Shown here: piece after piece, positions 19,356-64,000 of the stretch
How the letters are laid out: each line of letters opens with the position of its first letter
Position numbering within the stretch: position 1 is the stretch's first letter
Source of the DNA: Pagrus major
Taxonomy: Eukaryota > Chordata > Actinopteri > Spariformes > Sparidae
DNA: 64,000 bases
Direction: 5' to 3'
Assembly (NCBI RefSeq): GCF_040436345.1
Contig: NC_133230.1
Span: 11,852,197-11,916,196, forward strand
Notes under the pieces: model-generated
Told to the model about the DNA's origin: nothing
Seen by the model: the letters and a program-made list of their open reading frames with translations, nothing else
Databases searched by the model: none
Made by a program: the position numbers and the translations under genes

Positions 19356-29310
<9,955 letters not shown>

Positions 29311-58440: not shown

Positions 58441-59848
58441 CGAAGAAGAAGAGTGAGTGAGGACCAAACTTCACTTGGAATTTGTGTAATTTAAGAAAAC
58501 AGAAAAAAGTCAAATTAAAAATTCCTTTTTGGGTATTTTACCAACATAACATCATTATTTGCTTTAACTTCGAAGGTTTTGTTTGCTCGCATCATCTCAT
58601 CCTGCCCACGTCTTTAATTGTTTTAGAAATATGAGTTTTAAGCGCTCAAACAACAGTGAATTAACAGAAAATTATGATATTGAAAAGTCAAGAAATTAAA
58701 CAAGTTGTTTGTGATGGGAAAACGCTGAAACATTTTATTTTTTCAACTTCTCAGTTGTAAAGATTGGCGACCTTTCTTGGTTTTATATTATCTGGAGCTA
58801 AAACAATAATCGATTAATCGGACAATGGACACATTTGAGCAATTCAAAAGTCATCTTAAAGGTGCAATATGTAAGAATTGGTCATCTGTCAAATTCGTAC
58901 TCAAAACAAACATGGGGCAACATTCCACCAAAGTAACTGCTAACTGCTGTTAGCTGCTCTAAGCTAGTAAGCCCAGTTAGCCGTGCAGTTAGAGGTTCAG
59001 ACTGTGAGCCCTGGGACCACGGAAGTGTTTAACACTGCTAGCATGGGAGATTTGAACCAAGATGGGCTAGCTGGTTAGCATGCTAACTTTAAGTTTTCAA
59101 CAAAATTTCTTACATGTTGCCCCTTTAAAAGTTCAGCATGTAATCATTTAAGATGAAAGCATTTTTTAAAAATGAACTTAAAGTTTCAACACAATGTGAA
59201 AAAATAACAGTTTTAACATCATTACATGTATGTATGATAGCATGCTAACCAGCTAGCCCATCCAAAGCCTCTGTGCTAACTTTGCGATTTTGGGAAGCAT
59301 TATTACAAACGACTTTCAATCCCACTGGAATGAAAATGACAGACGAGATAAAGAAGAAGAACGTTATGTATGTTAGGTATGTTTCAAGTGAACCTCATTG
59401 TGATTTGAATATTTAATCCAACACAATACATTTTAACTTCTGCATGCTGTGCGTACAGTTAATATATAAAAGCAGAACAGTAACTTACATCAATGAGTGT
59501 TCAATAATTCCCTTTAAAAAAATAAAACCAGAGCAGACAGCCAGTGCAAACAATAGGCACAAGTAGTAACATAACAACTGTGCATAGAATCTTTCAGGAA
59601 CCTACAAAAATTTATCCCAAACTTAAAAACAAGAGTAAAAATATTAATACCTTAAATTAACATGTATGTACTGTATATAAAACACCAGTTGAACTTTACA
59701 TGAACACTAACTGTAATTTTTAGGTGTCTCCCAAAGGATTAATGACACTTTATAAAGTCCTTCAAACTTGGAGCCAACTTCGCCGTCCAGAAGGTGAAAG
59801 GTAACAAAAAGCTGTTTCTTCAACCTGTTTCAGCTTTATTTAATCTTC
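58441..59848. other. Intergenic DNA between dpy19l4 and the SSDDEPL gene
   Basis: No gene. Holds a TTAAAGG-ended MITE (58856-59128) and otherwise AT-rich sequence, the upper end of which should be the 3' UTR of the SSDDEPL gene. Confidence 0.5.
58856..59128. mobile_element. MITE with TTAAAGG(T/G)GCAA termini, 273 bp
   Basis: Begins ttaaaggtgcaatatgtaag and ends with its imperfect inverse cttacatgttgcccctttaa. The TTAA at each end suggests a piggyBac-like TTAA target. No coding capacity. Confidence 0.75.
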
Positions 59849-62721
59849 TTATTCTTCTTCTGATGATTCCTCTGAGCCTTTTGACTCCTCACTCAAGTGC
59901 TTTTCAGCAATCGGTGTGTCTGTTTGGGAGAGTAAGAATCATGTTACGCTTTATGCCCTATGAGGTTTTTAAACAGCGTCAGTAATAACTTGATATGTAA
60001 TCAGTACCTGTAGTGGTTTGGTTCGAGCTTTGTGTGGCCCCCGTCTCTTCACCATCACACCTCTCCAGTATTATCCTCAGGATTTTGGTCACTTGTGGGT
60101 GTTTTGCTGCCTTGATTAAGGGTTCATCATCTGAACTGTTGCTTTCTGACCCTAAACATTTTAATGAAACATAAATACATGACAGATTTAGAGAGCTTCT
60201 TCAGAATATTATGTTTTCTTGTGCATTTCTCTACCCAGTAAAGGGTTTGCCAGGGACTTTAGCCACATCATGTAGCCCCTAGAAACAGTCTATCACTGTT
60301 GGTGTTACATACATTTTCTGTCACCTCTACTAGCCCAAGACTGGCTGGCTCATAGTCTTTACCTGACACAAGCTTCTTTCTTGGCTTTTTGGGAGTTGTG
60401 CCCCTTTTCTTCGGCGACGAAGCCTTCCTTTTCTTTTTTGTTTGTTTGTTTGTGCAGTTCTTTTTCACAAGATTAATCAAAGGTTCATCTTCCGAGCTTT
60501 CATCAGAAGGTTCTGCCAAACAACAGTCACAGCAACAAGGAATTAAATCATAAATCATTATATAACATATAACGTTTTGTTCATGTAGTCATTACTGATA
60601 CAGCACCTCGTCTCTTTCTTGACACACTGACTTGCGATCCAGCTGTCTTCTTTGTGTTTTTCTTCATTGGTTTCTTCTTGGCAGTGAGGTTCGACAACGG
60701 CACATCATCATCACTTGAGCTGCTGTCTGAGGGTGAAAGGTTTTTTAAAAATCCAAGAGATTAGCACTTGATTTACTTGTAATAAAACTGCTTTAAATTC
60801 ATTCCAGTCTCATGAAAGTGATGCCTACCTTTCAGGGATTTGTCTTTCACTTTTGGTTTGGTTTTCTTGCTGTTCTTTTGCTCTTTAGGAGCCTTTGTCT
60901 GCTTCCTCTTCGTTACTGCCAGTGGTTCATCATCTGAGCTGTCACTGGAAGACTCTGCGTATGTGACTGGAACAAATATTTATTTTTAGGACAAGTGCGA
61001 TGAAGTTGAAATAAAATGATGAGTTGATTTCCACATTTTAAACTGACAGTTCATCTCCAAATCAAAAATACATTTCTCCTCTTACCTGTAGAGCTGTTGA
61101 TCCATCTATATCATTCTGGTGTGAGAGATACTGGCCATAGAGATGTCTGCCTTCTCTTAATGATAACGGATCTAGATGGCTATCGGCTTGTGGTGTTAAA
61201 GATGCCATAAAATACATTTGGGGTGAACTGTACCTTTACCAATTACCTGTTTTTCTTGCTGCATTCCGTTTGGATTTCGTGACTGGGGTTGCTTTTGGCG
61301 TGACAGCTCCTTTTCTCTGACGTTTGGAGTCAGTTTTCTTGGCAAATTCACTTAAAGGCTCATCATCCGAACTATCGTCCTCATCCAGTGACACTGTATA
61401 GGACAGGAAGACAATAAGTATCTGCTACACATAACAGCATCTTCCTGTTGATGCAGGGAGATACAATTATCTTACCTTTCTTCTTTGTATCAACAGATTT
61501 TCTCGGAGACAGTGAGGAAGGTTTCTTCGCAGCTTTGGCAATCTTTATGAGAGGCTCATTGTCGGAGCTTTCATCTGTATTCAAATCTGTAACCGTTACA
61601 TACAGAAACATTAAGCCATCCATTCCACACAGAAATCAGAAAATACAGATGAAATATAGATTATGACATTGACACTGTAACCACCGGCTTTCTTGTTGTT
61701 TGTGCCATTAGCTCTGGATGGCGTGTCGTCTATTTTCTCTGGTTTCTTAGTCGATGCAGAGATTTTCAGGTTTATCAAAGGTTCATCATCTGAGGAGACA
61801 TCCGAAGCTACAAAAGGAGAAGATATAAGCAAATACAATTTGTACCTTTTGCTCTCAAAGCTTACAATGTGTTGAGTTGAAAATAATTGACTTCAATGGA
61901 CAGTATTTTTAATTTATTAGACGTTAGCAACTCATATAATAACCAATCTATAACGAAAGCTCATCTGCTATTTTGTTTTTTTATCATTATGACTGTTTAA
62001 ATCAGTAGAGGAAGAAGTATTCAAATACATATATTTGGGCAAAAGTAATATTCAGCAGTAAGTCCTGCAGTCAAAGTTATACTGTAGTACAAATACAGGA
62101 GTATTACAAGCAAAAATACTCCGAATTGAGAATTGTACCTTGCAAATAATTGTACTAAATGTAATATATTATTAGATTACTACTTAATCATTAACAATGG
62201 AGAAGCTTTTTTTACTGTTGTATCTGGTTGAGCTAACTTTAATCACTATATGGATCATATTTTACAAGTTGTTTGTAATACAATATGCAAAGTCTTATGT
62301 AACTATACATGTCAGATAAATGAAGTGGAGTTAAAAAGTACAAATATTCCTTTGAGGTAGCGGAAATGGAAATACTCAAGTATAAAAAAACTCGTTAGTT
62401 ACAGTAACGTTACAGTACTCGAGTAACAAGCACAGTACTTATGGTAGTGAAACTACTTTTTAATAACCAGCACACCCACTACTGTTTTTATTTATTAAGC
62501 TAATGTTGCTGCAGTATAATCTCTCCTATCTTCACCGTTTTATAAAGACGCGAGCAGCAGCAGTGATGTTTATGACGAAGTTGTAAGCTAACTTAGCTTT
62601 TAGCTAGCTACAACTCCCAATGTCTCCTCCTCAGCTGAAAATTTAAAATGCCATTATATATCTGACTACCTGGACAGTCTTGGACCACATTAGTGGGCAT
62701 GTCAGCAGTGCTGCAGTCCAT
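59849..62721 (-). CDS. Unrecognised nuclear-type protein with seven SSDDEPL repeats
   Basis: I do not recognise this gene. Exons in coding order: 62670-62721, 61685-61807, 61476-61586, 61247-61393, 60829-60966, 60607-60726, 60363-60512, 60008-60151, 59849-59919; every intron is phase 1 and all join in frame to 351 residues. Exon 1 is MDCSTADMPTNVVQDC. Each of exons 2-8 opens with an acidic serine motif (SSDDEPLI, SSDNEPLI, SSDDEPLS, SSDDEPLA, SSDDDVPLS, SSEDEPLI, SSDDEPLI) and continues into 25-35 mostly Lys/Arg/Ser/Thr residues, e.g. KKKRKASSPKKRG. The acidic motifs are strong CK2 sites; the basic parts look like nuclear or nucleolar signals. The last repeat leads into a possible amphipathic helix (VTKILRIILERC), and the protein ends SEESKGSEESSEEE. 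SSDDEPLIK followed by a helix recalls the segment of DEK before its C-terminal domain, but no SAP box or DEK domain is present. Disordered chromatin or nucleolar protein is the best guess. Confidence 0.75.
61041..61235. repeat. Teleost repeat ('gacagttcatctccaaatca') in an intron
   Basis: Carries atctccaaatcaaaaataca, ccatagagatgtctgccttc, gatggctatcggcttgtggt and gggtgaactgtacctttacc: the block order of a common percomorph interspersed repeat. A second, reverse-oriented piece is at 22005-22140 in cd6. Confidence 0.7.
62000..62460. repeat. Teleost 'tactcaagta' repeat in first intron of the SSDDEPL gene
   Basis: Contains gaggaagaagtattcaaata, gtagtacaaatacaggagta and aatactcaagtataaaaaaa, matching the family at 29642-29815. 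Confidence 0.65.
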
Positions 62722-64000
62722 TTTGTTGCTTAATATTTATTGTAATCTTCATCCAAAACGCGCCAAGTTGCTCTATTTCCTCTTCATGTTAGCTTCTTCT
62801 TCTGGTGATGATATCGGGAGCAGACTAGACGCAGCGGCGGCGCGTTGCTGCCCCCGCAGGTCATTTGTAGAACTGCATACAGTTGTCCCACCTTCAGTCA
62901 AACATATGTTGAGCTCATTGTTTGAGCTTTACTCTGCAGAGTTTGACACTAGAGGGCTGTTTTCACAATCACTGCTGAAAATGTAAAGTTCCTCTGTGCT
63001 CATTTAAAATCCAACTCTCAAGATGTGGGACTACGAACGTCATTTGTGACATCACAAACAGTTTCGAATCCAATCACGGTCCATGGCGTTTTGACCCTTT
63101 AGGGCCACCGTAACAAACACTGATTGAAGGAAAAAAGGAGCTAAAATATTCATTCACAAGCCATGAGTATGGCAGTTGAAAGCTCAGTTTATTACACACA
63201 CACACACACACACACAAGATAAATATTCAAACACTGTAATGTTGGACAAACAGGACATGATCATGTAGATGTACTGATCCAGACAGTGATATGAGGACCG
63301 ACATGTAAAGCTTACTTAGTCAACATTAATCAACAGAGTGAGGACATTGTTGTGCTGTTCCCCAACCCCGAACATCAGGAACTTAACTGTTATACAAGAG
63401 GTTGGTTGTGTTGTTTTATTTTTTTCCAACCGTCTTCAGAATTGTTCAATCATTATTTTCTTGGATCATTTTCTGCTTGGTGATGTTGGTGATGTCTTGA
63501 TCATATCCCTGAGACAGTAAGGGGAGAATTGAATTTATCATACACGTGAACTATTCATTTCTTTTTAAATCAAACAGTGATTTTAAATCAAAAGTGCTAT
63601 CACAGAATTACTCTTACTATATATCTAACCTTTTATCTCTTTACCGTTTATACCAACACATGAATCACATATAATACAAAGCAAATTCATTAGGGCTGTA
63701 TGAAATATTGGTGAATGACTCTCAAAGAAAATATTTATAATCCTTGGAGATTAAATCTTACGCAGTTGAATTCATGATTAGACGACTGAGAGTTTACCAA
63801 TGTTTCATGCACCCTAATCTGAAAATCAAAAGTGAAATTTTCTGACCTTTTCATCGAAGAAGTGCTACATACACCATTCATTAAACTCAAATTTAAGATA
63901 ACACCACCCTGCTCTCGGACCGAGGCCTTGCTAATAATTATTTTGCATCTTGTAACCAACAATTTTCCAGCTTGATTTCTGATATAAATAAAAGCACTTT
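62722..64000. other. Upstream DNA with no supported gene
   Basis: Positions 62790-62880 are CpG-richer (gcagcggcggcgcgttgctg) and are the probable promoter of the minus-strand SSDDEPL gene. Beyond that the sequence is AT-rich with a (CA)n tract at 63194-63216. Open frames here have no recognisable protein. Confidence 0.5.
63194..63216 (+). repeat. (CA)n microsatellite
   Basis: Uninterrupted acacac run of 23 bases. Confidence 0.95.

Follow-up and report, generated by a model that had tools for sequence, protein, structure and literature searches.

The studied oncoprotein DEK is described in a 2015 review as having no known homologs; the same review reports that phosphorylation by CK2 weakens its binding to DNA and that its acidic parts bind histones (PMC4575739). 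Its C-terminal domain, residues 309-375, is described as auxiliary in nucleosome binding (PMC12263440). Treacle (TCOF1) has 11 central repeats encoded by exons 6A-16, in which CK2-phosphorylated acidic units are separated by basic stretches (PMC9133508). Here we describe a gene of Pagrus major that touches on both systems. It lies in a stretch of 64 kb of NC_133230.1, which we call the window (part of contig C16 in a genome of 786 Mb and 25 contigs). The likeness to DEK consists of an SSDDEPLIK core with hydrophobic residues and lysines after it, of a phase-1 intron before that core and of the proximity of KDM1B, the neighbor of DEK in cattle. The motif is borne by seven exons, whereas fish DEK has a single one, and DEK has the domains SAP and DEK_C, whereas the repeat gene has no match to either.

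The best explanation of the locus appears to be a real, protein-coding gene with an intact frame. Taking this together with its ancestry, we give a probability of about 55% to the reading that the gene descends from the C-terminal part of DEK or has an ancestor in common with it, and that it encodes a repeat protein without SAP that would act as a CK2-tunable nuclear scaffold. In the literature, no DEK paralogue was found among the matches listed, as judged by their titles or the start of their abstracts. Our searches also found no mention of SSDDEPL, nor of DEK together with SSDDEPLIK, and PMC3560075 makes no mention of DEK.

A chain of nine exons in one frame

Nine exons on the minus strand, from 59849 to 62721, join into one open frame of 1056 nt, with a predicted product of 351 aa. 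An earlier note, made from the letters of the DNA, had proposed this chain, and our reconstruction returned it exactly, with the same coordinates. In the joined model, all eight introns are GT-AG and all eight are in phase 1, as the note had also claimed, and the lengths of exons 2-8 are divisible by three (7/7). The note went on to treat the shared phase as a symmetric design. We do not retain this as separate evidence: the copying of a phase 1-1 exon gives the same outcome automatically, and since one such exon copied seven times yields phase 1 throughout, the uniformity needs no extra explanation.

Exon 1 (62670..62721) has its start codon at 62721, in an A-rich context, reads MDCSTADMPTNVVQDCP and ends in the phase-1 donor CAG/gtagtc. 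The seven repeats follow, one per exon. The first, on exon 2 (61685..61807), has SSDDEPLINL and a weak donor, CCG/gtggtt. Repeats 2, 3 and 4 read SSDNEPLIKIAK on exon 3 (61476..61586), SSDDEPLSEFAKK on exon 4 (61247..61393) and SSDDEPLAVTKRK on exon 5 (60829..60966). Repeat 5, on exon 6 (60607..60726), has the divergent form SDDDVPLSNL and another weak donor, GAG/gtgctg. Repeat 6, on exon 7 (60363..60512), reads SSEDEPLINLVKK and has the most basic tail. Repeat 7, on exon 8 (60008..60151), has SSDDEPLIK, with the DDEPLIK of DEK, and then a hydrophobic stretch. Exon 9 (59849..59919) encodes an acidic C-terminal tail and the stop codon TAA. A poly(A) signal, AATAAA, lies on the minus strand at 59835..59840 (coordinates set by eye) and begins 9 nt past the stop codon. 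At the other end, the stretch 62750..62900, upstream of exon 1, may be a promoter or 5' end: its GC content is 0.52 and its CpG observed/expected ratio is 0.88, versus 0.47 in the window. Over the wider interval 62600-63000 (400 bases), CpG is not enriched (0.46).

The donor sites match between 5 and 8 of the 9 consensus positions. Four of them match only 5 (intron 6) or 6 (introns 1, 2, and 8), as might be found in a pseudogene or in a chance chain of open frames. We regard this reading as scarcely credible, given that nine exons keep one frame, that every junction is GT-AG, that a poly(A) signal follows and that the divergence of the motif between repeats is mostly synonymous (see below). 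As a separate observation, part of intron 4 (61046-61177) resembles positions 21989-22128 of the window (68%) and is probably an old transposable element.

The repeated motif, its tails, and treacle

Each of exons 2-8 holds one motif of the SSDDEPL type (7/7). A search pattern made to cover the forms observed finds seven places when all six frames of the window are scanned, every one of them inside the gene, and none in 40 order-3 simulated windows. At the level of the whole genome, a degenerate DNA pattern for SSDDEPL, which also admits T, R, and others at residue 1 and F in place of L, gives 14 matches, 4 of them in this gene, and its reversed control gives 2. Among the 10 matches outside the gene, two encode an exact SSDDEPL, one within a frame of 36 aa and the other within a frame of 82 aa. 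None of the 89 pattern matches in bacterial and archaeal genomes is a relative, and exon 2, used as a whole-genome query at E 0.001, found itself only.

Two descriptions in the earlier note survive in part. The form of Ser-Ser, acids, and Pro-Leu is kept with deviations from SSDDEPL in exons 3 (SSDNEPL), 6 (SDDDVPL) and 7 (SSEDEPL), and in the alignment of the repeats only one S, the P and the L are invariant. The lysine-rich tail after each acidic motif is likewise found in exons 2-7, where the net charge after the first 15 residues ranges from +3 to +16, but not in exon 8, where it is 0. The claim that selection acts on the motif fares better. The mean pairwise difference between motif codons is 0.55 at position 3, against 0.19 at position 1 and 0.12 at position 2, and the differences between repeats amount to 71 synonymous versus 24 non-synonymous, over pairs that are not independent of each other. 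The introns show no similarity among themselves (blastn, E 1e-4). Hence, in our reading, the duplications took place long ago, and selection has maintained the motif ever since. Judging from the codons, a constrained motif of CK2 type, with no recognized domain around it, is supported.

The joined product, in which we count 75 basic residues and 59 acidic ones, has a low-complexity composition, with 17% Lys and 14.5% Ser. The CK2 consensus rule finds 23 sites in it, where shuffled versions have a mean of 13.4 (SD 2.9; the highest of 2000 shuffles had 24). There are also five short basic matches resembling nuclear localization signals. The earlier note saw in the motif a probable "docking peptide", which is unproven; a polyampholyte of chromatin type is just as likely.

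These properties raise the question of whether the gene belongs to the TCOF1/NOLC1 (treacle/Nopp140) family proper. The logic of repeats on exons is alike, as are the acidic clusters of CK2 type: in treacle, acidic units of this type and basic stretches also lie on successive exons (PMC9133508), and we find the same arrangement here, except that exon 8 lacks a basic tail. The ends and the size of the protein tell a different story. A Pfam search with the joined product (E limit of 10, with HMMER filters that drop most matches above about 0.1) returned only two unrelated matches, both below threshold, and none to LisH or to Treacle and SRP40_C, which are domain names of this family; nor did it return SAP or DEK_C, in agreement with the earlier note, which had stated that no DEK or SAP domain is present. 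The repeat gene thus differs from TCOF1 and NOLC1 in having neither a LisH N terminus nor a Treacle repeat or a C-terminal treacle/Nopp140 domain among its Pfam matches. It is also much shorter, with 351 aa versus 1488 in treacle (PMC9133508), and each of its short acidic clusters is closed by a fixed Pro-Leu. Membership in the family is therefore very unlikely in our view. We infer that the gene may work like treacle or Nopp140; by the Pfam search, it lacks the ends that define these two.

The motif segment compared with DEK

The fish has a complete DEK gene elsewhere, on C17, at about 31.084-31.090 Mb. A search of the genome for DEK_C gave four matches from 13 candidates, the best of them on C17, and the SAP exon of fish DEK has one match in the genome at E up to 1, also on C17. 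The C-terminal exon matches DEK_C at E 5.1e-10 and the DEK of the PDB at E 1.7e-15 (we take the DEK and KDM1B chains of the PDB to be human). This exon reads EDSSDDDEPLIKMVKKAPTDEQ..., with SSDDDEPLIK. The phase-1 intron that leads into it lies two codons ahead of the serines, or three if an alternative acceptor is used. A phase-1 intron just before the motif is common to this exon and to the repeat exons. Their 3' ends do not match, with phase 1 in the repeat exons and phase 0 in that of DEK. This makes the latter a phase 1-0 exon, and the next one continues the DEK_C domain. The DEK trait of an SSDDEPLIK core ahead of the C-terminal domain, on an exon entered in phase 1, is found in the repeat gene, and the status of this trait as family-defining is our own choice. 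The other three DEK_C matches, on C5, C12, and C18, cover the second half in two cases and most of the first half in the third, and probably belong to other DEK_C proteins. By eye, fish DEK sits within a cluster of repeated leucine-rich, NLR-like frames (C17:31060001-31120000), which is odd for a housekeeping chromatin gene.

Exon 8 had first suggested DEK and was left out of a profile built from the other six repeats. Among 177,635 PDB sequences, the top match of this profile is DEK, at residues 305-317, with a weak E of 0.094; the match overlaps the start of the C-terminal domain at residue 309. In a set of 14 loci, chosen by hand and including the DEK locus (6054 open frames, 243,554 residues), the only matches below E 1 are the seven exons of the gene and the fish DEK exon, and the next one has an E of 1.1. 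The fish DEK exon scores 24.9 bits (E 3.6e-6) and exon 8 scores 20.4 bits. Over cores of 16 columns, the DEK of the PDB has 6-11 residues in common with each repeat, and the repeats have 5-10 in common with one another. The fish DEK exon aligned to the whole of exon 8 gives a local z of 7.7, a motif-driven score that none of 20,000 shuffles equaled. In the whole genome, DNA coding for DDEPLIK has three matches, namely exon 8, DEK, and one that codes for DDEPFIK; this count alone is not strong, because the reversed-pattern control gives two.

Other comparisons did not return DEK. Run against the whole genome at E up to 10, exon 8 retrieved itself only; the joined product found no relative in a search of PDB sequences; and a profile of 43 positions over all seven repeats matched only designed alphaRep proteins in the PDB (E 0.9-7.1). 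The tail of exon 8 shows no significant similarity to that of DEK in shuffles (p 0.34 local, 0.19 global; p 0.10 when the two residues after PL are included), and the other six tails give p values from 0.046 to 0.95, uncorrected. On this comparison, a reading of the exon 8 tail as a degenerate DEK_C is unproven. The earlier note, which treated kinship with DEK as inference, had called both the last repeat and the stretch after it, given there as a helix, DEK-like: the DDEPLIK core, the profile, the intron phase and the gene order speak for the former, and the comparison of the tails lends no support to the latter.

These results should be weighed against a gene of convergent origin, a disordered nuclear protein whose repeats stem from the duplication of an unrelated exon in the manner of TCOF1, without any descent from DEK. 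CK2 would favor S-S-D-D-E, and P-L would have been fixed by chance. The motif is indeed short and of a type prone to convergence, the profile match to DEK in the PDB is weak, the tail of exon 8 is not DEK-like and the query with this exon missed DEK. The low complexity of the joined product, rich in lysine and serine and with no domain match, and the similar architecture of treacle (PMC9133508) fit this origin as well. Still, it would require three coincidences, namely the adjacency of KDM1B, the extended core in common with fish DEK, and the phase and place of the intron. We consider it possible but doubtful.

The KDM1B neighborhood and a possible origin

KDM1B is the next gene upstream, and its stop codon lies 1497 bp from the ATG of the repeat gene. 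Two of its exon pieces match KDM1B structures in the PDB, at E 7.5e-17 and 1.3e-33, and the latter has a single match in the genome, at C16:11921234. A cattle gene list gives the order RNF144B, DEK, KDM1B, TPMT, NHLRC1 (PMC8299338), so that the repeat gene, like cattle DEK, is a neighbor of KDM1B, which is not a feature of the protein. A deletion in human 6p22.3 is described with DEK and KDM1B among its 13 genes (PMC8310580). In the flanks of fish DEK (60 kb, by eye), we saw no KDM1B, and other genes of 6p22.3 are scattered in the Pagrus major genome, with NUP153 on C3, ATXN1_C on C3 and C17, TPMT on C16 at 2 Mb, and DEK on C17. Hence, the adjacency of KDM1B and the repeat gene could be due to chance. 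In human, KDM1B and DEK are presumably adjacent, with DEK past the 3' end of KDM1B; the repeat gene would then be on the same side of KDM1B but in the opposite orientation. We assume that human DPY19L4 is elsewhere, at 8q22, and we take INTS8, CCNE2, DPY19L4, and CFAP69 as names for genes of the window and its flanks, by eye from their translations. For Nile tilapia, DPY19L4, GDF6, and KDM1B are given as genes close to a single marker, with no gene named between DPY19L4 and KDM1B (PMC7811220), so that these two lie near each other in a second fish too.

The presence of the signature motif of DEK, in a gene adjoining the cattle neighbor of DEK, makes an offshoot of DEK possible, and we see descent from DEK as the likelier case, not as a proved one. 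The gene should not be filed as DEK, since it matches neither SAP nor DEK_C, the defining domains of DEK; "DEK-related, SAP-less repeat gene" is a label that fits. An origin by teleost duplication, with the repeat gene and the DEK of C17 as ohnologues, is not shown, the sampled 6p22.3 genes being spread over C3, C16, and C17, and it is only one possible route.

If the gene did descend from DEK, the exon with SSDDEPLIK, entered in phase 1, would have been copied to give a series of seven. The SAP part, which binds DNA, would have been lost or never carried along, and a complete DEK lies on another chromosome, C17. The product would be a presumably disordered and nuclear protein that alternates acidic and basic segments. 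Each acidic motif fits the CK2 consensus and may be used by the kinase, in which case phosphorylation could shift the competition of the motif against the lysine-rich tails and against DNA, RNA, or histones. The tails would bind nucleic acid, and the phosphorylated motifs would release the scaffold or bind basic partners. The whole protein could thus be a multivalent scaffold of chromatin or the nucleolus, tunable by CK2 and similar to treacle, in which exon skipping could alter the number of repeats without a frameshift. We propose a disordered nuclear scaffold because of the architecture of treacle (PMC9133508) and of what is described for DEK with respect to CK2, histones, and nucleosomes (PMC4575739, PMC12263440).

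A stronger version, which we hold tentatively and at slightly less than even odds, is that this is the first known relative of DEK, one that gave up the domains for DNA binding, expanded one DEK exon seven-fold, became switchable by CK2, and sits at KDM1B. If true, it would show what the SSDDEPLIK segment does alone; a natural protein that keeps and multiplies just this segment would isolate its function, for an oncoprotein that the 2015 review describes as lacking known homologs (PMC4575739). It would also illustrate cleanly how exon duplication can make a repeat protein out of a linker motif.

Two further elements of the window may be mentioned. Between the repeat gene and the dpy19l4-like gene, positions 59061-59262 hold a perfect inverted repeat of 25 nt with 152 nt between its arms; this element looks of the MITE type and is 70% similar to parts of the locus of the DEK region on C17 (L012:2969-3220). 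At about 23000-25600, on the minus strand, frames resemble SRCR (scavenger-receptor cysteine-rich) domains by eye.
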